Shown here: positions 9,135 to 20,766 of the stretch, piece by piece | Layout of the letters: each line of letters starts with the position of its first letter | Numbering within the stretch: the stretch's first letter is position 1 | Assembly (NCBI GenBank): GCA_029213195.1 | Contig: JARGNI010000031.1 | Location: 2,848 to 66,847, forward strand | Direction: 5' to 3' | DNA: 64,000 nt | Source of the DNA: Verrucomicrobiales bacterium | GTDB taxonomy: Bacteria; Verrucomicrobiota; Verrucomicrobiia; Verrucomicrobiales; DEV007 | Translations under genes and position numbers: made by a program | The notes under the pieces: generated by a model | Told to the model about the DNA's origin: nothing | The model's input: only the letters and a program-made list of their open reading frames with translations | The model's database searches: none

Positions 9135-12100
9135 TCACGCCTTCTTCTTTCCGCGAGTGGGGGTGCTCATGAGAAAGGCAAGCCCGAGCAACAGGAGAAC
9201 CAGGACCAAAGCGGAACCGATCGCGAGACGATAGTTCGGCGAAAAGGTCAGATCGAGGGAGAGTGGGGCGTTCTCGGAGACTTGAACGGTTCGCTGGAAG
9301 GTGTAGACCGTGCCCTCCTCGGGGAGCGTGATCGTGATCGCCTGGGGAGCCGGCAGGGTGCTGCGTTGGTGATCGACAAGTCGACCCGCGATACGCGTCA
9401 GAGCGGCATTGTCCTCGCTCGTATTTCCCTGGAGCAACTGGCTGACTTCCTGAGGGCGATAGTTGAGGTCGCCCGCCTGAAGGACCCGGTTCTGATTGAT
9501 ACCGCTCTCGATCTGTTCTTCCTGTTGGTTGGGAGGAGTCTCACTCGGATTGTTGAGAAAGAGACGCTGACGGCGTGTGTTGAGTCCTACGACAGCCTGC
9601 TGCTTCTTCAGGTTCTCCAATTGAACCCGAGCATCCTCGTTCGAGGCGGCATCGAGGGCATACTGGTTGGCGACACTGTTGAAAGCCCAGCGAGCTTTGC
9701 TTTGGTCTCCTTCCTGGAGGAAATCATTTGCCTGCTTGAGGAGTGTGGCGGCTTTCTGGGCTTGCGCCTCTCGTTCGCCCTTGGCCTTGGAAAGGTAAGT
9801 GCTCTTGTCGAATTGAGTCCATCGCTGCTCTTGCTTGAGTTCGAGGTTTCCACTTCGATCGGTGAGAGAGAATCCCTTCGGAGCGACTACATTCCACTCG
9901 ATGTTTTCGAGTGGGACGTTGAGCTCGGGGCTGAGCAAGGCAAGGTCGTGGAGTTTCTCTCCCTCGATCGAATAGACAAAACGCACTTCGGCGGTCTTGT
10001 CGTCGGCGCCCGGCAGGATGTAGAACTGCCATGAATCTCCCTGGCGCACCGAGTGAACGCTCTCCCCGTTCACGAAGATGCTGAAGAGATCTCCGCCCGG
10101 AGGAAGGCCAACGGTAAGTCCGCTGCGCTGGACGACCTCCATGGTCAGGGAGACCGAGGTCAACTGGTCCCCAAGAGGAGAGAGCACTGAGGTCAGTTCT
10201 CCCCGAGCCACGCGAAGCTTGAGGGACTCGGCCAGGGAATGACGATCGACCCGGATCGGTAGCGTCTCGTCCGGAGAGATCGTGCGGAGCGAAAGCGCTG
10301 GAGCGGTGCGATTGCCCGCTTCGCGAAGCGATTGCGGCACCGTATTCCAGTCCGCATTCTGCCAGCCGCGGGGGAGTTCTCCAGGTTCGATTTCAAGTCG
10401 GCCACCGGCACGCACCGCAAAAAAGGAGGCCAGCTGACGGGCATCGGGGAGCGAAGCCGGCTGGAGATTTTCCTGGTCGTTGGCGCGATCGCCTCGGAAT
10501 TCGTATTCGATCCGAAGATCGATGCGACCGATCATGCGACGCTTGAACTGGATGCGCCAGAGGTCTTCCTCGTCCGGCACCTTGACGAGATCGCTGACCG
10601 CGTCGCCGGTGGCTCGCAAGGTGCGGTTGACTTCTTCGTCGGTGATGGGAAGTCGGATCAGAAGGTCCTGGATCGAGGCGTTCTCGACCTGGAAATTTCC
10701 GAAGAGCACGGTGCGAGTCTGTCCTTCTCGCAAGGTGATCTCCTGGAGGATCTCTCCGGTGAGCCAGGGATCGAGCTTCTCGATGCCGAGATTGAGGGTC
10801 CAGTCTTTCTGGAGAAGGCGAAAGGCGAGGGCTCCCTGGTCGTTTCCGCCGAGGGTTCGTGGGTCGACTTCGGAGACATTCTGACGGTTCAGGGTCCGGA
10901 GTCGGATCCCGGTCGTCGGTTGGAGGATGAGTTCTCCGGTCTGGCGGTTCGCTTCGCGCAGTTCGAAACGGGGAATGTTCCAGTCCGCGCTGGGGTCGGG
11001 AGCAGATCCTGTCAGCGAGACCGAGAACGCCTGGGCTCCGATCGTTTTTCCATTCAGATGCATCACGATGATGCGGTTGCCCTCTTCGGTCAGTTCTGCC
11101 CAGTGATGAAGGGAGTCGCCGGAAAGAGACTCGACTTCGAGCCCTTCGGGAAGTGGGAAGCTGAGTTGGAAAAGTCCGGCCCTCGTGATCTCTGCGGTCA
11201 GATTGACGGCGAGAACGACGCGTTCATCGCCGAGGGAGATGACTTGCTTGCTGTTGACCCGAATCTCCGGGGCGACGGGGGCGACTCGCAGGTCGAGACT
11301 GCCTCCATCGGTGCCATAGCGGTAGACGCGGTGCATGACGTTTCCTTCCCCGGCGTTGAGAGCCTTGTCGAAATCGGAAAGGTTGACGAGGGAAAGTGTT
11401 TCGGTCTCGGTCTTTTCTGGTTGGGCATCGGGGCCAAAGGCGAGGGCGACTCGTCCGACGTCGCTGTCAGCTTCGAGCACCCGCAGCGGAGCCAGGGTGG
11501 CATCGGCCGGAAGCGGGGCGAGACCACGCTGAGTCTCGACCATGATGACGAACGGCTTCGACTGTGCTGGCTCGAGACGAGTCTGCAGGAGACGAGTGTC
11601 GGCATCGAACTGCCAGGTCGCAATGGGGCCGGTCACTCCGCTCACGGTCAGTTCTTCGGGGATCTCGATTGTGAGATCGGAGATTTGTCCCTGGGCCGGG
11701 CGGATCTGGATGCGGTGACGACCGTCGATCACTCCCGGACTGGGAAGATAAAGGTGGGATGCTTCGACAAAGAATTGAGTCTCCTCCTGGCTGACATCGC
11801 GAGCCTGGGGACGGAGAAAGACTTTCGGATTGGGGCGCGGCGCCAGGAGGATGGATGCCGTGCTGGCTTGCTCCGATTTCTTGGAATCGATGCGAATGGC
11901 TTCCGGGCTTTGAAATTGCCAGTCCGGTTGGTCATAGCTGGCCTCGATTTTTTGAACCGCTGCCGGGCCCGTGGGGATGGAAAAACCTGCCGTCACATTC
12001 TTCACATCCATTTCGAAGGAAAACGTGGCGAGAAAATTGGCCTTCTCGGGGAGGGCAGGGGGAAATGGGTCCGCAAAGGGGTCCTCATCTACCACAGGCT

Positions 12101-15100
12101 TCGGAGCGGGTTCCGGGATGGTGATGAGGTAGCACAATCCCAGCCCCTCAACCTGCTGACGAGTAATCCGAAGCCCCTCGGCTTCGAACTTGGTCAAAAC
12201 GGCGGGAGCTCGAAGGAGGAGGAAACGGTCGCCTGTCTCTCCGCTGATACGGATCGAGCCAGTACCCTTGAGTTCGTGGTTCTCTTCCGAGAGTTTCCAC
12301 TCCTGGGTGATCTCGTTGGCAGGTTTCAAGTCCGCTGGCAGGATGCCCTGGGCCGAAACCGAGAGGGTTCCCAGGGAAAGGAGAAGCGCGCCGATCAATG
12401 TAGTTGCGGTTGCGCCTCCGCCTTCCTCCAGGTCGGTCGGTTCATCTCGCTCTTCTTCCGCCTTTCGCTTCTTTGCGGCAGCGCGTTTCTTTTTCATGTC
12501 TTTTCCGATGTGGATGAGCCTAGGGATGAGCAGGATGGCGATCCCGAGTCCAACCGCGAGGAAGAAATACGGAGTCCCGTTTCTCTGTAGAAGAATGCCG
12601 AGGGCTATCGCTACGATTCCCGCGACACGAAGAAGCCGGGCTCGGTCGGCAGCACTGGGGAAGAGAGAGAAGACAAGGGCGCTGATTCCGGCGACGACGA
12701 GAAGGGCTCCCAGCCAGGAAATGTTGGCCTGCCAGAGTTCGGTGTTCTGGATCGAAATCTCGAGGAGATCCTGGGGGAGTGTCACGGGAAGACTGATCTG
12801 GAGCGAATTCATCGGTCCGAAACCGGTGAAGGACCGAGTCGCCGAGACGATGCAAGCGAGTCCTGACGCGAGGTAGAAGCAGACCCCAAAAAATGTCCCA
12901 ATGCCGCCGAGTCGGACTAGGAACATCCCGATGGCGAGAAGGGCGAGAACGATGACAACCAGTCCCATTCCATTTTCGGCCAGCCATTCGAATCCCGTGG
13001 GGCGAAGCACGGGTGCAGGAGGAGAGACCGTTCCGCCACTTGGAACGAGGACGTAGTTTTCATCGGGAATCAGGCTCCATTCAGTCTTGAGAACCGGCAC
13101 CGTGACCCTCGGTAGCTGCAGCGTGGGATTCTCTCCCTCGACAACCGGTCGTCCCAGGCGGAGTCGAACCTCCGAAGGCGCATTGGAGTCGGTTACGGCG
13201 GGCAGGGGGATCAGCGTGGACTCGCCGGCCTGTCTCGCCGTGACGGGTTTCCCGGCGACGGACACGGCCCAGAGTCGGGTGTTCTCGGGCAGGTCGAGAC
13301 GCAGGGCCTGGCGACCCCGAGACTTTACGTAGTAGAGCAGGTCGGAGACCACCTCGCCATCGCGTGAGACTCGACTCTGGATTTCGGAGAATTCGATGAC
13401 CTGTCCGACGGTTGTGCCGGGCTCATACCAGGTGACATCGACGGCGAGATCGAAGGGACGACTCGTGTATTGCCAGGCTCCGAGGGAGGGCGCTGCGGAA
13501 AGGAGCTGGAATTCGGCCGGCAACTCGAGGGCATCCAGCTTGAGGAGGGTGTCGGACACGGTGGCGACCTCCGTCTTCACCTGCATCGGGCTGACGATCT
13601 GGAGAAAACCGCGCTCGCCTTCGACTCCGAGAGGAGTCACTCGTCCGGGTTGAATCGTGCCACCCTCGCGACCGAGGGGTTCCTCGAAGGTGATCAGGAG
13701 CGTGTAGGCACCGATCACAGGCTGGTGCAGCGTGACGAAGAGGGTTTCTTCGTCCTGGCGAAAGGAGCGGACATCCTTCCCGTCGGCGGTGACATTGCCG
13801 AGATCGGACGGGACCGTGACCGACAGTTCCGAGATCGGAGCTCCGGTGACGAAATAGTTGATGAGGACACTTCCGTAGGCGGTGCCTTCGCTGAGCGAGT
13901 AGAGGTGAAAGACGTCGGCCTGGATGCTCTTGGCGAGGACTTCGACACTCATCGTTGCCGACCAGTTCTGCTCCCGAATCCGAAAGGCTTGTTGGAGACC
14001 GGGAACCTGCTTCGGGAAATAAGAGAGGGGTTTCTCGACGAGCAGCTCGGTCTCGGTGATTCCGATGCGGAAGCCGGGCTCGGAAATGACCCCGATGTCT
14101 CCTCGGATCGCTTCCGCATCAGGGTGCTCGATGCGCGGCAGGATCCAGTCACCACCCTCGGCGGGAGTGCTCAACTCCCACTGCAGGGCGACGAGCTGGC
14201 GTCCGCTGACATCGGCGTTGAAAATGATCTTCAGCGTTCGCTGGCCATCGATGGGCTCCGACCCGACAACATAATCGGCGACAGATGCTCCACTGACGGA
14301 CACCACGGAATAGCCTTCGGGATAGAGGAGGTTCCATTCGCGGATGGGGGCTTCCCGGATGTCGAGTTCGAGCTGGCTCTCGATGACTCGGTCGGTGTCG
14401 GAAAATCGATAGAGCAGGATCTCGGAAACCGAGGTTTCGGGTTGAATCCGGTCGGCGGTGATCTCGTAAGCATATTCCGCCGAGGGAAAACGATAGACGA
14501 AAATCTGGCGGGCGGCGATCTGAGCGTCGGGATACTGATCGGGTGACAACTGGGTGAGCCCGGAAAGCCCCGACGTCTCGAGTCGGACGCTTCCCTCGTT
14601 GGTCAGGCGGATGTGTCCCGAATGTCGAACTGTTCCGATCGGAGTGATCTGGAGGGGCTCGGCCTTGACAGGAAAGGCACTGAGTGGCTGCTGGGTGCGA
14701 ATGACGAGCGCGGCCTGATCCTTGATGGGTTGGCTGAGCTTGACGGAAAGCTGACGACCATTGTCGTTTTGATCGAGCTTCCATCCCGCAACACCAGGGC
14801 CTTCGACATTGAGAATCTCTCCCTCGCCAGCCAGGTCCAGATCGAGCTGACTTAATTCCCCCTGGAGGATGCGATACTCGACCTGGTGGATTTGCTTGAG
14901 CAACCCTGCCGTGACACGGGTCTCGATCTTGGCCGTAGTACTGAAAAAGAGTTTCCCTTCGCCAATCTTTCTCGCCTCTTTCCAGGCGATGTGGCAGTGC
15001 CCAGTGGCAGGGAGAAATCCGGACTCACCCTCGGTGATGACTCCTCCATCGCGGAAGGTGACTTCTTCTTCGAATCCCTTGAGCGAGATGGGAGCCACGG

Positions 15101-16076
15101 TTCCCGAGGCGGCGCGGAAGGAGAGCTGTTTCCAGCCATCACCGCTCTGGATGCTGGCGACGAACTCGACTTTCACCGGCCACTCACCGGGCTTGTCGAA
15201 ATGGAGTTCATAGTGGGCGCCACCTTTCGGATGGGTGACGAGTACGAGATTCTGACTCTTTCCGCCGGGAAACGATTCGATCGCGACATCGCCCTCGAGC
15301 AACCTCAGGCTTGCTTCCGCTTCCGAGACACGGACGGTCCCCGTCAACTCAAAGGACGCAGACTTGCCATCCTCGGAGATTTCTCCAACGAGATTGGAGG
15401 AAATCATTTCGACCGGCTGAGGGGTGACTCCATCGCGGGAGAGCGAAAGGACGAGATTTCCCTGGCCCTTGCTCTGAAAGCGAACCGGGGGATTTCCGTT
15501 GTTGGCGAGAGGGAGGAAACCATCGAACTTGGTAGGTCGGGCATCCACGCCGTTGCGATACTGGAGTGAGATCAGCTGCTGGAATCCACTCGAAGCTCCG
15601 GTATCCGGGCCAAAGCTTGCGACGGTGAGAAGGGCGGGGAGTTCGAGGTCCTCCTGTTTCAACTGGATCGAGAAAACATGGTCGACCACAGGTTGGTCCG
15701 ACTTCTTGAGAGAAAGAGTCAGGTAGCGCTTTTTTTCCGTATCCGTTTCCACGGCCCAGGAGGCGAGAGTTTTTCCCTGCACCTGGACGACTTCGCCACC
15801 TCCGGAAAGCGCCAGGCGGAAGGTCGTGGCCTCTCCCTGGAGAACCTTTACTTTCGCTTTCGCATTGGTGTCGACCTGACTGCTGGAGACGACCACGGTG
15901 CTTTCGATCGAGGCCGTGTAGAAGAGAGGAGGCTTGGGCAGTTCGCCGCGAGCCTCGACGATGATCTTTCCGGTTCCGTTTTCACCGATACTCGCTCCCA
16001 CCGAAGCTTTGCCGTTCTTTTCCTGCGCAAAGAGCGAGGATCCGAGCAAGAGAAGGAGCAGGGGAAGTTTTTTCAT
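9135..16076 (-). CDS. Giant exported repeat protein with internal membrane cluster (2313 residues)
   Basis: The start at 16076 gives a clean signal peptide (MKKLPLLLLLLGSSLFAQ); a longer frame from 16127 would bury it. The first ~1020 residues are beta-rich with degenerate repeats. Each repeat pairs a segment such as YRILQGELSQLDLDLAGEGEIL with a V-G-V-W strand and ends in a Pro-rich strand before G-I-L-G-R-type residues. Several hydrophobic helices occupy about residues 1030-1190. A Lys/Glu-rich stretch (1193-1216) follows, then a second signal-peptide-like segment at 1222-1242 ending SVSAQG. More beta repeats follow, then a coiled/TPR-like region near 2090-2160 and one C-terminal helix (about 2283-2305) before a KKK tail. 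It is probably an envelope-anchored surface or periplasmic scaffold. The family is not recognised. It lies downstream of the sigma/anti-sigma pair on the same strand. Confidence 0.85.
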   Translation of the reverse strand: MKKLPLLLLLLGSSLFAQEKNGKASVGASIGENGTGKIIVEARGELPKPPLFYTASIESTVVVSSSQVDTNAKAKVKVLQGEATTFRLALSGGGEVVQVQGKTLASWAVETDTEKKRYLTLSLKKSDQPVVDHVFSIQLKQEDLELPALLTVASFGPDTGASSGFQQLISLQYRNGVDARPTKFDGFLPLANNGNPPVRFQSKGQGNLVLSLSRDGVTPQPVEMISSNLVGEISEDGKSASFELTGTVRVSEAEASLRLLEGDVAIESFPGGKSQNLVLVTHPKGGAHYELHFDKPGEWPVKVEFVASIQSGDGWKQLSFRAASGTVAPISLKGFEEEVTFRDGGVITEGESGFLPATGHCHIAWKEARKIGEGKLFFSTTAKIETRVTAGLLKQIHQVEYRILQGELSQLDLDLAGEGEILNVEGPGVAGWKLDQNDNGRQLSVKLSQPIKDQAALVIRTQQPLSAFPVKAEPLQITPIGTVRHSGHIRLTNEGSVRLETSGLSGLTQLSPDQYPDAQIAARQIFVYRFPSAEYAYEITADRIQPETSVSEILLYRFSDTDRVIESQLELDIREAPIREWNLLYPEGYSVVSVSGASVADYVVGSEPIDGQRTLKIIFNADVSGRQLVALQWELSTPAEGGDWILPRIEHPDAEAIRGDIGVISEPGFRIGITETELLVEKPLSYFPKQVPGLQQAFRIREQNWSATMSVEVLAKSIQADVFHLYSLSEGTAYGSVLINYFVTGAPISELSVTVPSDLGNVTADGKDVRSFRQDEETLFVTLHQPVIGAYTLLITFEEPLGREGGTIQPGRVTPLGVEGERGFLQIVSPMQVKTEVATVSDTLLKLDALELPAEFQLLSAAPSLGAWQYTSRPFDLAVDVTWYEPGTTVGQVIEFSEIQSRVSRDGEVVSDLLYYVKSRGRQALRLDLPENTRLWAVSVAGKPVTARQAGESTLIPLPAVTDSNAPSEVRLRLGRPVVEGENPTLQLPRVTVPVLKTEWSLIPDENYVLVPSGGTVSPPAPVLRPTGFEWLAENGMGLVVIVLALLAIGMFLVRLGGIGTFFGVCFYLASGLACIVSATRSFTGFGPMNSLQISLPVTLPQDLLEISIQNTELWQANISWLGALLVVAGISALVFSLFPSAADRARLLRVAGIVAIALGILLQRNGTPYFFLAVGLGIAILLIPRLIHIGKDMKKKRAAAKKRKAEEERDEPTDLEEGGGATATTLIGALLLSLGTLSVSAQGILPADLKPANEITQEWKLSEENHELKGTGSIRISGETGDRFLLLRAPAVLTKFEAEGLRITRQQVEGLGLCYLITIPEPAPKPVVDEDPFADPFPPALPEKANFLATFSFEMDVKNVTAGFSIPTGPAAVQKIEASYDQPDWQFQSPEAIRIDSKKSEQASTASILLAPRPNPKVFLRPQARDVSQEETQFFVEASHLYLPSPGVIDGRHRIQIRPAQGQISDLTIEIPEELTVSGVTGPIATWQFDADTRLLQTRLEPAQSKPFVIMVETQRGLAPLPADATLAPLRVLEADSDVGRVALAFGPDAQPEKTETETLSLVNLSDFDKALNAGEGNVMHRVYRYGTDGGSLDLRVAPVAPEIRVNSKQVISLGDERVVLAVNLTAEITRAGLFQLSFPLPEGLEVESLSGDSLHHWAELTEEGNRIIVMHLNGKTIGAQAFSVSLTGSAPDPSADWNIPRFELREANRQTGELILQPTTGIRLRTLNRQNVSEVDPRTLGGNDQGALAFRLLQKDWTLNLGIEKLDPWLTGEILQEITLREGQTRTVLFGNFQVENASIQDLLIRLPITDEEVNRTLRATGDAVSDLVKVPDEEDLWRIQFKRRMIGRIDLRIEYEFRGDRANDQENLQPASLPDARQLASFFAVRAGGRLEIEPGELPRGWQNADWNTVPQSLREAGNRTAPALSLRTISPDETLPIRVDRHSLAESLKLRVARGELTSVLSPLGDQLTSVSLTMEVVQRSGLTVGLPPGGDLFSIFVNGESVHSVRQGDSWQFYILPGADDKTAEVRFVYSIEGEKLHDLALLSPELNVPLENIEWNVVAPKGFSLTDRSGNLELKQEQRWTQFDKSTYLSKAKGEREAQAQKAATLLKQANDFLQEGDQSKARWAFNSVANQYALDAASNEDARVQLENLKKQQAVVGLNTRRQRLFLNNPSETPPNQQEEQIESGINQNRVLQAGDLNYRPQEVSQLLQGNTSEDNAALTRIAGRLVDHQRSTLPAPQAITITLPEEGTVYTFQRTVQVSENAPLSLDLTFSPNYRLAIGSALVLVLLLLGLAFLMSTPTRGKKKA

Positions 16077-16097
16077 GGAAAATAGGGTTCCGGATAG

Positions 16098-16114
16098 AGT
16101 CGAAAAGATCGACT
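16098..16114 (-). promoter_or_regulatory. Inverted repeat in the leader of the giant gene
   Basis: AGTCGA (16098-16103) and TCGACT (16109-16114) form a perfect 6-bp inverted repeat with a 5-base centre, 22-38 bp before the start codon. It could be an operator half or a leader hairpin. Confidence 0.3.
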
Positions 16115-16120
16115 GGGAAG

Positions 16121-16159
16121 TTGTCATTTGATTGTCAGCGAGTTGTCAGCGGTTTGTAA
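16121..16159 (-). promoter_or_regulatory. Four 11-bp-phased TTGTCA-type boxes upstream of the giant gene
   Basis: TTGTCA occurs at 16121, 16132 and 16143, with a degenerate fourth copy TTGTAA at 16154, each exactly 11 bp apart. The TGTCA-N6-TGTCA arrangement is that of Pho boxes and, more generally, of OmpR/PhoB-family direct-repeat sites. The boxes lie 45-83 bp before the start at 16076 and read TGACAA on the coding strand. Which regulator binds is not known. Confidence 0.55.
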
Positions 16160-16298
16160 AAAGGCAGAGGAGAAAGAGTGGCGGTCAACCCTGTAGGCTT
16201 GCCGACCCAACGGGGTGGGGTAGGAGAAGGAACAGGGTTGGATGGGGCATTGGAGAGGGGGGATTCAGGATCGAGATGGGGGCGTCGTTCGTGGATCT

Positions 16299-19200
16299 CT
16301 ACTCCGAGGTGAGCGACCGGGTTTTCTGGACCATTTCCTGAAGTTGCCTCAGGCCTTGGTCGCGTTTCCAGAGGGAGGGCAGATCGTTCAGAACGGTGGA
16401 AAGGGTTTCGAGTTCGACGAGTTGTCCGATTACGTCTTCCTTGAGACGGGACCCGAGGAAGGCAGCTGTACCGGCGACCCGCATGGCGGGCGCGGCCTGC
16501 TCGAATGGCGGGGTGTTGGGATCATAGAGAATCGGCCAGCGTTTCTCGACCATCTTACCTGTTGAGAGATCCCGAAAGCGTACAGAAACGGATCCGATAT
16601 CTCCTTTGCCTTCGGGCCGGGCTTCCACCTGGTAGACGGCCACTCCGGCTTCGGCGGCGGCGAGCTCGGCGGCATCGACGGCGTCGTTTCGGAAGTCCTC
16701 TTTCTTGAGCCGGTGTTTCTCGAATCCGATGAGTTGATAGGCTCCGACTCGATCGGGATTGAACTCGACCTGGACTTTCACATTCCCTGCGGCAGGACGA
16801 AGGGCACCGGCGATCTGGCGGGCAAACCCGGTGTCGGCATCCTCGGGTCGATCGAGAAGATAGTAGCGGCCATCTCCCTTGCGGGTGAGCGCTTCGAGAA
16901 TCTCATCGTTGAGTCCCTGGGCACCAATTCCAGCGGCATCGAAGGCGATTCCCGCGTCCCGGAATGTCTCGATCTTGGCGGCGAGACGGGTAGGTTCCGC
17001 GTCGCCCAGATTGGCGGCTCCATCGGTGAGGAGGATGATGCGGTTCTGGGCGTTAGGGACCTGCTGCTCCTGCGCTTTCTGGAAGGCGAGATCGAGCGCC
17101 GCCTCAAGGTTGGTTCCGCCCTCGCTGGGAAGGTTGACGACCCGGTCGAGAAGGGCTTTGGCATCCGCTCCCTTGGCGCGATCGGCGAGGAGACGAGGCT
17201 GACGAGCGAAGCTGATGAGGGTGACTTCGTCGGTCTCCTGCAATTGAGCGAGGAGGAGGCCCAGGGCGCGCTGCACCGTCTCACGGCGATCGGGACGCTC
17301 CATCGATCCCGAGTTGTCGAGGAGGAGGGTCAAGCGAAGTGGCACGGAGGCCTGGCGACCTCGCGCAGCCGTCGCGAGTGAGATGCGGAGCAGGTTGCGC
17401 TGCTGGATGAAGGGGTGACGCGCCTGGTTGAGAGCGACTCCGACCTTTTCTTCATGGGTCGGAATCGGATCCCGATAGTCGAGTGCGTTGACGAATTCCT
17501 CGACCCGGATCGTCTCCCGCTCCGGCCATTGGTTTTTGGAAAGGGCTGCACGGGCAAGATGAAAGGAAGAATCGCCGACATGGAGAGAAAAGGTGGAGAA
17601 GGGCTCTTCCTCGGCGCTCTTCTCGTCGAGCGCGAGCGATCGGAAATCGAATCCCCGAAGCTCCCGTGCTCCTCCAAGGAAATCTCGAGTGAATCGAACT
17701 TCCTCCTCCTTCTCTGCGGCTTCGCTCACCTGGTCGACGACGGCTTCGTCGGGATCGCGAGATCCGGAACGAAGTTTCTCGGTGATCTCCGCCTCGCCGG
17801 AAATGGATTCCTGCAGTCGAGCGACTCCGGCGATGATGACAGTTTCTGCCTCCTGCTCGGGACTCTTGCCCGATTTGTCCATCTCGAGCTTGCTCTCGAG
17901 CGAAGTGACCTCCTCCGAGAGATCGGAAAGCCTATGGAGGCTTTCGGCTTCCTCCTGCATGAGAGGCTGCTCGGCATCTTCCAGGGGAGCGCCACCGCCG
18001 CCACCACCGAAGCTCCCTTGGTGCGCGACCGGAGGAGCGAAGGGGTCGGCTGCAACAGACTTGTTGGGTGGCGCAGGGGTTTCCCAACCTTCCTTGATCT
18101 TCCAAAACATTCGGGCGCGGGTGTGGTCGCGGGCCTCGTCGTAGTATATTCCCCGGGTTCGCATCTCCTCGCTGTTCGATGCGATGAGATCGCCATCCAG
18201 CGCACTTTTCGGCATGGCGAAGTCGCTGTCTCCGAGGGGATTGGCGGCATTCGCTTTCTTTCTCTCCATTGCTTCCGTTCCTCCTCTCGGAGCGGCGAAA
18301 GGGTCGGCGCTTGGCTGCAGTTGACGACTCGAAAGACCGCCGGAACCCGCCTCGACCGGGGCGGCAAAGGGATCGATCGAGGCTCTACCTTCGGAGGCGA
18401 CTCCATTTCGGTCCTGATCCGCATCCGCACTGTAGAAGTGGAGGGAATTCGAAGCAGGTGCAGAGTCCTTCTTATCCATACCGGCTCCCCACTGTTCCAA
18501 ATCAATCGTGGTATCGTCAAAAGGATCAACCACGGCCAGGTTCGAGGTCGGCGGAGTTTGCTTGTCCGCAAAGGCGCGACCATTGACGATATCGACTTCA
18601 CGACTCTGGTCCCGGATTCCGCCGTCGATGGCCAAGCTGTCGTAGTTGTCCTCGTTTCGGGCAAGCCCGAAGGTCTGGGCACTTTCACTCTTCGCGACCT
18701 CCTCTTTGCGTCCAAAGTTCACCCCGGCGGGAACCGGGGCAGCAGGGGGTTGCGCGGCGGAACGATTCGCTTGCTGCTTTTCTGCCACTGGAAAACCAAT
18801 GGCGGTAGTGCCGTTCGAGACCATGGAGTCCATCTCCACGTTTCCGGAGGCGCCGATCTGGGTTTCGCCGAATCGTGATCCGATGTTTCCGGTGGCGACA
18901 GACTGATTCGAAGCAGGTGCCTCAAGAGCAGGGAGTTTCGTGCTCCCACTGACCCTTTTCATTTTCGATAAACTAGAGCCCCTCACCACTCCGTCGGTCA
19001 GAGCATACAGATGTGTGGTCGACGAGTCATTCTCTCCGGAGGAAGGAGTTGTAGCCTCCCCGGGAGATGCAGGGACTACCGCTTCCGCAGGCTTCGTCGT
19101 GATGGTGGGGCGGGATGGCTCCAGGGGAAGGGACTCTCGGATGACGCGGTCTTTGGTCCGGTTGTTTCCCTCGATCGAGACCGATTTCGCGCGATTCAGC

Positions 19201-19796
19201 TCATCCGCGTTCGACCTTTCCGATGCTTCAAGGGTAAACGACATATCGCTGGGCATGTCCATCGCGGCATCTTCCCGGACCGCAGCTTCCGCCGCGAGTT
19301 CATCATCCAGGTAGGCATAGCTATCGGTCCCCATTGCGGGCCGACTTGCCATTTGAACCCCCGGAAGAGTCCCGAAGACGAGCACCGCGACCAGTCCAAG
19401 GAGGCTGATCGATGCGGCAATCGATGCGGCGAACGGGAGAAATCGGATTTTCCTTTTCTTCGCTCCCTTTTTCGGCAGAGGCGACTTCGTCGAGGCGGGA
19501 CGGAGAAGGGATGGTCGCGATGCCTCTTGAGGCTCTCCGATCGTTGCGAGAAGTTTTTCCCGGCGTTCGGTCGAGAGCTTCCAATCGTTCTCTTCACTTT
19601 CGCTTCGCAGCGGGAGAGTTCCGAGAAGGGCATGAAGATCCAGCATTCTCTTGTAGAAAAGAGTCGCTTCGGGAGATTCTTTGATCCGGCGTTCGGTCTC
19701 TTCTTTTTCAAAGTCCGACGCTTCGCCCAGGATCATGGCAATGATGCGGGCTTCGAACTCAGGTTCCATCCAGGAGTGCAGATTTTCTTCGTTCAT
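16299..19796 (-). CDS. Anti-sigma-like / transmembrane / YfbK-type VWA fusion protein
   Basis: This is a 1165-residue protein. Residues 1-65 are helical and acidic (FEARIIAMILGEASDFEKEE onward), like the cytoplasmic part of membrane anti-sigma factors, without a zinc-finger HxxxCxxC motif. Residues 118-143 form one membrane helix after a KKGAKKRK basic stop. Residues 150-690 are low-complexity, rich in Ser/Asp/Pro/Ala. Near 720-800 comes the YfbK-type region that precedes VWA (FSTFSLHVGDSSFHLARAAL, VEEFVNALDYRDP). VWA starts near 820 with the MIDAS motif DNSGSM, and a C-terminal YfbK-type (DUF3520-like) domain follows. The orientation puts VWA outside the cytoplasm. Its ATG overlaps the sigma gene's stop by 4 bp, indicating coupled translation, so the sigma factor is its likely partner. 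Confidence 0.85.
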   Translation of the reverse strand: MNEENLHSWMEPEFEARIIAMILGEASDFEKEETERRIKESPEATLFYKRMLDLHALLGTLPLRSESEENDWKLSTERREKLLATIGEPQEASRPSLLRPASTKSPLPKKGAKKRKIRFLPFAASIAASISLLGLVAVLVFGTLPGVQMASRPAMGTDSYAYLDDELAAEAAVREDAAMDMPSDMSFTLEASERSNADELNRAKSVSIEGNNRTKDRVIRESLPLEPSRPTITTKPAEAVVPASPGEATTPSSGENDSSTTHLYALTDGVVRGSSLSKMKRVSGSTKLPALEAPASNQSVATGNIGSRFGETQIGASGNVEMDSMVSNGTTAIGFPVAEKQQANRSAAQPPAAPVPAGVNFGRKEEVAKSESAQTFGLARNEDNYDSLAIDGGIRDQSREVDIVNGRAFADKQTPPTSNLAVVDPFDDTTIDLEQWGAGMDKKDSAPASNSLHFYSADADQDRNGVASEGRASIDPFAAPVEAGSGGLSSRQLQPSADPFAAPRGGTEAMERKKANAANPLGDSDFAMPKSALDGDLIASNSEEMRTRGIYYDEARDHTRARMFWKIKEGWETPAPPNKSVAADPFAPPVAHQGSFGGGGGGAPLEDAEQPLMQEEAESLHRLSDLSEEVTSLESKLEMDKSGKSPEQEAETVIIAGVARLQESISGEAEITEKLRSGSRDPDEAVVDQVSEAAEKEEEVRFTRDFLGGARELRGFDFRSLALDEKSAEEEPFSTFSLHVGDSSFHLARAALSKNQWPERETIRVEEFVNALDYRDPIPTHEEKVGVALNQARHPFIQQRNLLRISLATAARGRQASVPLRLTLLLDNSGSMERPDRRETVQRALGLLLAQLQETDEVTLISFARQPRLLADRAKGADAKALLDRVVNLPSEGGTNLEAALDLAFQKAQEQQVPNAQNRIILLTDGAANLGDAEPTRLAAKIETFRDAGIAFDAAGIGAQGLNDEILEALTRKGDGRYYLLDRPEDADTGFARQIAGALRPAAGNVKVQVEFNPDRVGAYQLIGFEKHRLKKEDFRNDAVDAAELAAAEAGVAVYQVEARPEGKGDIGSVSVRFRDLSTGKMVEKRWPILYDPNTPPFEQAAPAMRVAGTAAFLGSRLKEDVIGQLVELETLSTVLNDLPSLWKRDQGLRQLQEMVQKTRSLTSE

Positions 19797-20374
19797 GATG
19801 CTTCCTCGATTCCGATTTGGCGGAGGTTTTCCGCGAGTTGTTTCAATAGATGGTGAAGGCGGTAGCCGACATTGCTGACGCTGAGTCCCGTTTCCTCTGC
19901 GATCTCCCGATACTTGAGATCCTCGAAATACTTCAGCCGGATCAGGGTGCGATCGCTCTCCTCAAGCTCAGCAAGGAGCAATCGGAGAAAACCTGCAGCC
20001 TCCATCCGGTGGAGAAGCCCATCGGTCTCGTCCTTGGCTGGCGTATCGGTTCCCGAGTCTTCGGACAACACCTCGCGACGATGATTCCGGTGGTGGTTGT
20101 AGGCTCGATTTCTGACGCTTCGAAAAAGCCAGGCGACCGGATTTTCCACCTCATCCCAATGCTGATGCAGCTGGAGGAACACCTCTTGGACCACGTCTTC
20201 GGCGACGGCTCTGGTCCCCGTCAGGGAGTAGGCGTATCTCAGGAGCGGAGTTTCTTGCTCGATGAAAAGGTCGGGCAATGCGGGTTTCGCCTGCCGGTTT
20301 ACTTGGGACGGTTCTTTCGCAGGCATGGGGGAGACGCGCGGGTCAGACGGGGGGATGAATTCAGGTTCACTCAC
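19793..20374 (-). CDS. ECF-type RNA polymerase sigma factor
   Basis: The 193-residue product has sigma region 2 at about residues 35-105 (LLRYAYSLTGTRAVAEDVVQ, then EVF, and PVAWLFRSVRNRAYNHHR) and region 4 at about 130-185, with the helix-turn-helix REIAEETGLSVSNVGYRLH. No region 3 is present, as expected for the ECF group. The start shown is a GTG at 20374; an ATG at 20326 (Met17) is an alternative, since the first 30 residues are poorly conserved in such proteins. The stop overlaps the start of the anti-sigma-like VWA gene by 4 bp (ATGA). It probably directs RNA polymerase to envelope-response genes, possibly including the giant gene. Confidence 0.92.
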   Translation of the reverse strand: MSEPEFIPPSDPRVSPMPAKEPSQVNRQAKPALPDLFIEQETPLLRYAYSLTGTRAVAEDVVQEVFLQLHQHWDEVENPVAWLFRSVRNRAYNHHRNHRREVLSEDSGTDTPAKDETDGLLHRMEAAGFLRLLLAELEESDRTLIRLKYFEDLKYREIAEETGLSVSNVGYRLHHLLKQLAENLRQIGIEEAS

Positions 20375-20766
20375 GATGTGACGGCTGGTTCTAGGGGGAT
20401 GACACGGCCGCGGAGATATTCTTAGAAATTCAGGGATACTTTTTTTCGCCGTGCTCCGGGTGTCGTCTCTCTACCGACGGCGAGAGATGACGTTTCTCGG
20501 AGATCTTCGAAGAAAGAGAGCACAGCTTCTCTCAGGTCGAGGGTATCGACTTTGGGAGCGGTGCCTAGACAAATCTCTTGCCGAATGGCCTCTCGGAAGA
20601 GCGATAGACCCATCCCCAGATCTTCTGCGTGGGATTCCTTCCTAGAGAGGTAACTCCGGTCCCTTGAAGCAAATTTGCGGAAAGTCGAGTCAATGGATCG
20701 CGTTTCTGGGAAAATCCGAAAATTTACATTGTAAAGTCATTCCTGTTTTCGCTACTCTCGCTTTCG
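20375..20766. other. Intergenic region between sigma factor and pseudopilin cassette
   Basis: This 392-bp divergent spacer should hold promoters for both flanking operons. It contains two perfect palindromes near the cassette, GCAAATTTGC (20669-20678) and TTTACA-T-TGTAAA (20723-20735), and a TTCT-T-AGAA element near 20426-20434. A 63-codon minus-strand frame (20422-20613) is open but has no supporting features, so I do not call it a gene. Confidence 0.5.
20723..20735. promoter_or_regulatory. Palindromic candidate operator upstream of the cassette
   Basis: TTTACA-T-TGTAAA is a perfect odd-centred palindrome ending 31 bp before the ATG at 20767. A second palindrome, GCAAATTTGC, lies 44 bp further upstream. 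Confidence 0.4.

Follow-up and report, generated by a model that had tools for sequence, protein, structure and literature searches.

Organization of the three-gene locus

The minus strand of the window, the whole stretch of 64,000 nucleotides analysed here, carries three genes between positions 9135 and 20374, encoding an ECF sigma factor, an anti-sigma/VWA fusion protein and a giant exported protein. The sigma gene (19793..20374, minus strand) starts with GTG and encodes a short protein of 193 aa which, as in ECF sigma factors, has only regions sigma2 and sigma4 (Sigma70_r2, E 5e-14, and Sigma70_r4_2, E 1e-13, in Pfam). The fusion gene (16299..19796, minus strand; 1165 aa), which adjoins the sigma gene and the giant gene in relatives as well, begins with an ATG that overlaps the stop codon of the sigma gene as ATGA. 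The giant gene (9135..16127, minus strand), conserved in both Verrucomicrobiota and Planctomycetota, encodes 2330 aa when read from its first ATG and 2313 aa when read from its second. The spacer between the fusion gene and the giant gene (16077..16298, minus strand) measures 171 bp to the first ATG and 222 bp to the second, and contains no copy of the sigma promoter described below. A preliminary description of this DNA had reported three open reading frames on the minus strand with the ATGA overlap, which our coordinates confirm; the 2313 residues and the 222-bp spacer that it gave hold for the second ATG, while the first yields the longer protein and the shorter spacer.

Domain structure of the anti-sigma/VWA fusion

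The N-terminal part of the fusion (aa 1-112; 19461..19796, minus strand) was modelled with AlphaFold2 (AF2) using 50 homologues. The model (pLDDT 80) contains four helices, at residues 12-22, 28-40, 42-60 and 76-86, and shows the layout of class I anti-sigma domains, a three-helix bundle plus a separate fourth helix (PMC7406223). Nearly all of the best 18 Foldseek matches in PDB were anti-sigma factors, with E-values that are individually weak (0.4 and up), and the best nine matches in VIA-align were all anti-sigma factors (Z 3.2-6.3); the factors matched by the two programs were RslA, MucA, RsiW, RskA, RseA, ChrR and DdvA. The assignment as a class I anti-sigma-like domain rests on the fold, since the sequence search of PDB generated only one hit, to a coiled coil, which was taken as chance. 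The HxxxCxxC motif of the zinc subgroup is absent from this domain in the window; the motif is optional within class I anti-sigma factors (PMC7406223). As is also typical of the class, the gene adjoins that of its ECF sigma factor, in 62 of 62 loci. The anti-sigma-like tail proposed in the preliminary description is thus borne out by the four-helix model and by its nearest PDB folds, RslA, MucA, RsiW, RskA, RseA and ChrR.

Hydropathy placed a single transmembrane helix at aa 122-140 (19377..19433, minus strand). Given this single helix after the anti-sigma domain, the linker and the VWA module that follow it should be periplasmic. The module consists of a vWF_A domain (PF12450; aa 726-804; 17385..17621, minus strand; E 5e-15), a VWA domain (aa 822-983; 16848..17333, minus strand; VWA_2, E 9e-18) and a YfbK_C domain (aa 998-1119; 16440..16805, minus strand; E 4e-23). 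All three lie above the Pfam cut-offs, and together they form the architecture of the YfbK family. The DxSxS metal-site motif of the VWA domain is intact in the window, as DNSGS at aa 827.

The giant protein

HMM scans of the giant generated no Pfam match and no NCBIfam family of note, and its sequence matched nothing in PDB. The N-terminal 1044 residues were represented by an AF2 model built from 23 sequences. The model was all-beta with a pLDDT of 83 but a pTM of only 0.38, so that the arrangement of the domains is uncertain. Two of its beta domains resembled the N-domain of M1 aminopeptidases in VIA-align, one at model residues 375-543 (14448..14954, minus strand; Z 12.1, rmsd 4.2 Å over 160 residues) and the other at residues 547-712 (13941..14438, minus strand; Z 11.9, rmsd 3.5 Å over 154 residues). 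Residues 545-897 resembled ribophorin I/OST1 with a Z of 15 at an rmsd near 20 Å, and the integrin and complement hits in the Foldseek list were set aside for their very high rmsd. With neither a peptidase match in Pfam nor a sequence match in PDB, the giant was not assigned to the M1 aminopeptidases or to ribophorin I. The likeness to these proteins lies in the predicted fold of the beta domains; the giant differs from them in lacking detectable sequence homology and in being a duplicated array with membrane anchors.

Profile comparison identified the two halves of the giant as colinear duplicates (N3~C2, N4~C3, N5~C4 and N6~C5). A middle membrane region of six hydrophobic segments (aa 1053-1257; 12357..12971, minus strand) and a C-terminal transmembrane helix (aa 2301-2319; 9171..9227, minus strand) were found by hydropathy. 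Alpha-helical anchors of this kind point to the inner membrane, which makes the 'surface protein' of the preliminary description unlikely. The giant is probably not exposed at the surface, and is probably a periplasmic, duplicated array of beta domains anchored by helices.

Conservation of gene order

A profile of the giant detected 126 relatives in named genomes, and 80 of these loci were analysed. Judged by record title, the 80 loci belong to Verrucomicrobiota and Planctomycetota (e.g. Haloferula, Rubritalea, Rhodopirellula, Rubripirellula and Stieleria). The VWA gene lies directly upstream of the giant on the same strand in all 73 testable loci; in the remaining 7 of the 80, no more than about 220 bases separate the open frame of the giant from the end of the contig. 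The ECF sigma gene comes next, before the VWA gene, in 62 of the 62 loci whose contig extends far enough. Among relatives of the window's genome, strong giant matches either adjoin the VWA fusion or sit at a contig break. As order, strand and adjacency recur in 62/62 loci, the arrangement is not due to chance, and the three genes, previously proposed to form one locus, constitute one conserved cassette. Homologues of the giant that are unlinked from the sigma/VWA pair, which would have spoken against that proposal, were not encountered in this comparison. In relatives, the spacer before the giant has a median length of at least about 125 bp.

Several variants of the cassette were observed. In three loci that are planctomycete by title (L164, L166 and L177), the giant is encoded by two genes, split near the middle membrane region. 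Genome G040 carries a sigma gene and a shortened fusion of 710 aa without the VWA core (L043, 9662-12300), and a search of this genome did not find the giant. In genome G030, a sigma gene with its promoter is accompanied by a 383-aa open reading frame bearing the anti-sigma domain (L042, 6819-8533); VWA and giant genes were not found nearby. Remote relatives of the giant were seen in L091, L092, L093, L094, L096, L103 and L107, where two very large genes lie in tandem, with neither a sigma nor a VWA gene in the stretches examined around them.

A conserved promoter-like motif upstream of the sigma gene

An ECF-type promoter of the sigma operon is predicted at 20401..20427 (minus strand), with the sequence TTCTAAGAA-N13-GTGTC and a -10 element ending 26 nt before the GTG of the sigma gene. 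The corresponding motif, CTAAG-N15-GTGTC, was present upstream of the sigma gene in 63 of 63 loci, scoring 16-36 against a maximum of 11.4 for shuffled sequences. Its variants over these loci follow C[TC]AA[GT]-N15-(G[TGA]GTC or close), and the best spacing was 15 in every locus. As the model was trained on the same 63 upstream regions, the fair test is provided by five held-out sigma genes (L031, L040, L041, L042 and L043), the promoters of which scored 22-29. Sigma genes of a second sigma-VWA family scored below 7 and are regarded as having no such promoter.

When 3.1 Mb was scanned (both strands of the loci), one off-target site scored 15 or more, and the sigma promoter was the only strict match to the motif in most genomes scanned. 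We also considered a separate copy of the promoter for the giant, and rejected this because the motif scan found none before the giant. As the promoter is nearly unique per genome and absent before the giant, the main target of the sigma factor is predicted to be its own operon; the conserved motif is presumably the one read by this sigma factor. The earlier suggestion that the giant is a target of the sigma factor thereby gains indirect support, in that the sigma-linked promoter lies ahead of the operon and the giant has no copy of its own in front of it. The spacer of 171 or 222 bp before the giant in the window could hold another promoter.

Further strong copies of the promoter occurred in two genomes, both in one related family. 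One copy precedes an alpha-2-macroglobulin gene in G046 (L237, 839-865) and the other a gene for a 2118-aa exported protein in G040 (L236, 679-705); both genes are candidate further targets. Two additional matches, one inside a Fic-family open reading frame (G046:C170) and one in G000:C8, were treated as likely chance.

Composition of the linker

The linker between the transmembrane helix and the VWA module (aa 150-722; 17631..19349, minus strand; 573 aa) is hypervariable, other linkers being 13-24% identical to that of the window. Its change is fast: fusions with VWA regions about 94% identical have linkers that are 32-34% identical. When the window's own genome was searched in six frames, the 573-aa linker matched, besides itself, two secretins of the Amuc_1098 type and BamA at two separate places. 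The piece at aa 202-235 (19092..19193, minus strand) is POTRA-like, with 57% identity to the BamA of the same genome (E 1e-4) and weak matches to the POTRA and OM_YaeT HMMs. The piece at aa 546-577 (18066..18161, minus strand) is secretin-like (Amuc_1098 family, NF042912), with 59% and 56% identity to the two secretins (E 7e-8 and 2e-6). The third piece, TRDFLGGARELRGFDFRS at aa 700-721 (17634..17699, minus strand), resembles the RGF region of the BamA barrel (68% identity, E 0.026) and matches a second place in the same BamA open reading frame as the POTRA-like piece.

Similar results were obtained for other genomes. The linker of the relative G014 had two matches to BamA of its own genome (E 1.4e-15 and 4e-11), one to a Verru_Chthon cassette protein A (E 1.8e-15) and, with up to 71% identity, others to many proteins of about 300 aa judged to be OMP-like from their sequences. 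A Haloferula linker matched secretins and other, mostly exported-looking open reading frames of its own genome. Its secretin segment (GLRSGDGAINRNNIDAVLNNPNR) is also found within other, apparently unrelated Haloferula open reading frames (L195, 673-2250; L193, match at 595-765). One linker (L132, 3127-6870) additionally contains a stretch of about 250 aa similar to polysaccharide chain-length determinants of the Wzz/EpsF type.

A search of the whole of NCBIfam with 62 linkers matched 27 families. Essentially every one of the 25 listed concerns the cell envelope, secretion or lipoproteins; Amuc_1098 secretin was the leading family, in 28 of the 62. A Pfam scan of the same linkers, in which that of the window had no match, added TPR, PATR, STN, Secretin and DUF1559, with only 3/62 linkers reaching the STN model at E 0.01. 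Some pieces amount to whole TPR or STN modules. A reference set of outer-membrane proteins gave 166 matches from real linkers, in 24 of the 62, and 0 from shuffled linkers (5 each), size-matched control proteins and 200 neighbour open reading frames; this set was picked after the first matches, and the unbiased evidence is that from the own-genome searches and the whole-library NCBIfam and Pfam scans. Chance or composition was rejected as the source of the collage, given 0 matches in the controls versus 166 in real linkers. The order and content of the pieces vary between species. The pieces are not consistently closest to the copy in their own genome, and their capture is therefore not datable.

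These observations support the view that the linker in Verrucomicrobiota is a collage of envelope-protein segments from BamA, PilQ-like secretin, Verru_Chthon_A, other OMPs and autotransporter repeats, as judged by sequence similarity. Planctomycete linkers are variable too. Own-genome fragment searches in Planctomycetes bacterium SV_7m_r and Rhodopirellula sp. SM50 gave no clear linker sources, and the collage is therefore claimed for Verrucomicrobiota only. The second sigma-VWA family, which belongs to the same clade, has the same kinds of linker pieces: its members in L088 (2927-5872) and L090 (2761-5790) carry secretin TPR, an OMP piece, Verru_Chthon_A and BamA in their linkers.

Discussion

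The cassette is predicted to work like an ECF/anti-sigma pair, in keeping with its sequence and fold, and its sensor part and obligate giant are new. The linker collage, the promoter and the spread over two phyla go beyond the preliminary description. It shares with the ECF/class I anti-sigma pairs RpoE-RseA, SigW-RsiW, AlgU-MucA and SigL-RslA the adjoining genes for a sigma factor and a membrane-anchored anti-sigma factor, a predicted four-helix anti-sigma domain and a promoter before the sigma gene. It differs from them by the long hypervariable periplasmic linker with the VWA/YfbK module, the obligate third gene of 2300 aa and an apparently very small regulon. The likeness to FecI-FecR signalling with a TonB-dependent transducer is that the periplasmic part of the anti-sigma factor can hold STN-type material related to outer-membrane proteins (PMC11637429), whereas in the cassette few linkers have STN, no receptor gene is present and several unrelated envelope proteins are represented. 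The recurrent neighbours are the sigma factor and the giant, and a FecR-type system, with a FecR_C/STN domain and a TonB-dependent transducer in the locus, was not recognized. The second YfbK-type sigma-VWA family (L088, L090 and L097-L100) likewise has a vWF_A-VWA-YfbK_C module beside an ECF sigma gene, and L088 and L090 share linker piece types with the cassette; it differs in that its VWA region is only 30-35% identical and in having no giant and no such promoter. A full-text literature search, with most subscription papers and preprints outside its coverage, returned no description of this gene set, and the fusion possibly includes a sensor of a new kind.

Sequence analysis established the order of the genes, their domain architecture, the promoter motif and the composition of the linker, and we propose, with a probability of about 0.65 for the mechanism as a whole, that the operon is a self-contained, autoregulated signalling system of the cell envelope. 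At rest, the anti-sigma domain would hold the sigma factor at the inner membrane. A signal in the envelope would be read by the periplasmic linker and the VWA module, and the sigma factor would be released through regulated proteolysis or a conformational change. Once free, it would transcribe mainly its own operon, through to the giant, so that more giant is made as an effector, perhaps as an envelope scaffold, and more anti-sigma factor is made as feedback. The least certain step, and a rather doubtful one, is that the linker in Verrucomicrobiota docks to, or competes with, the machinery of outer-membrane assembly and secretion; it is suggested by the composition of this linker, with its pieces of BamA, secretin, pseudopilin-like and other envelope proteins.

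The same pieces admit other readings. There is close to an even chance that the collage has no sensory role, the linker being a permissive, disordered periplasmic spacer that captures in-frame coding fragments, of which only those suited to the periplasm survive. The very fast change of the linkers in sequence and length, the variation of piece order and content between species, the lack of the pieces in planctomycete linkers and the secretin piece in other Haloferula open reading frames are consistent with such a spacer. It accounts less readily for the near restriction of the recognized pieces to envelope and secretion families, for the same few source proteins in many species, for a collage in two sigma-VWA families and for pieces that are whole TPR or STN modules. 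The linker may instead mimic clients: its pieces would vie with genuine outer-membrane and secretion clients for access to Bam, secretin, chaperones or proteases, and the release of the sigma factor would be set by client load. The nature of the pieces (BamA POTRA, barrel strands, the BamA C-terminal region, secretin segments, Verru_Chthon_A and OMP segments) and the recurrence of the collage in two sigma-VWA families argue for mimicry, but conserved segments are also the easiest to detect, and the pieces are absent in Planctomycetes, so that mimicry is not needed for the system as such. We consider client mimicry unlikely, and no more probable its fuller form, in which a continually renewed collage of segments from proteins that are to be assembled or exported (BamA, secretin, pseudopilin-like protein, OMPs and autotransporter repeats) senses outer-membrane biogenesis, the sigma factor is freed by client load or by failure of the machinery, and the design is common to both families.

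Two further possibilities concern single parts of the system. One STN domain can bind another, and an STN-like subdomain is found in anti-sigma factors of the FecR type (PMC11637429). By analogy, the TPR-STN part derived from secretin might be a docking module that reports on the outer-membrane secretin through STN-STN contact, as in FecR, with the small pieces as decayed remains. TPR/STN or secretin matches in many linkers fit this somewhat unlikely reading, as do the known STN-STN binding and the FecR subdomain, but it leaves the BamA, Verru_Chthon_A, OMP and autotransporter pieces unexplained, and the small number of linkers reaching the STN model (3/62 at E 0.01) argues against it. The giant, in turn, might belong to the sensor rather than the output, its periplasmic beta domains binding the VWA module and signalling through it. 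This is suggested by the strict gene linkage, by the intact metal site of VWA and by G040, where no giant was detected and the VWA gene is shortened and lacks its core; this is the single case of co-loss seen, and we regard a sensory giant as quite improbable.

The self-contained signalling system that we favour is an ECF module defined by gene-order and promoter evidence in two phyla, the main predicted target of which is its own operon with an envelope protein of 2300 residues. It offers a testable entry into envelope signalling of Verrucomicrobiota and Planctomycetota. A functional linker collage would represent a new sensor design, in which a protein displays pieces of clients to report on the outer-membrane assembly line. 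Even without a function, the recurrent uptake, in frame, of fragments of outer-membrane genes by a single hypervariable region would be a striking evolutionary process.
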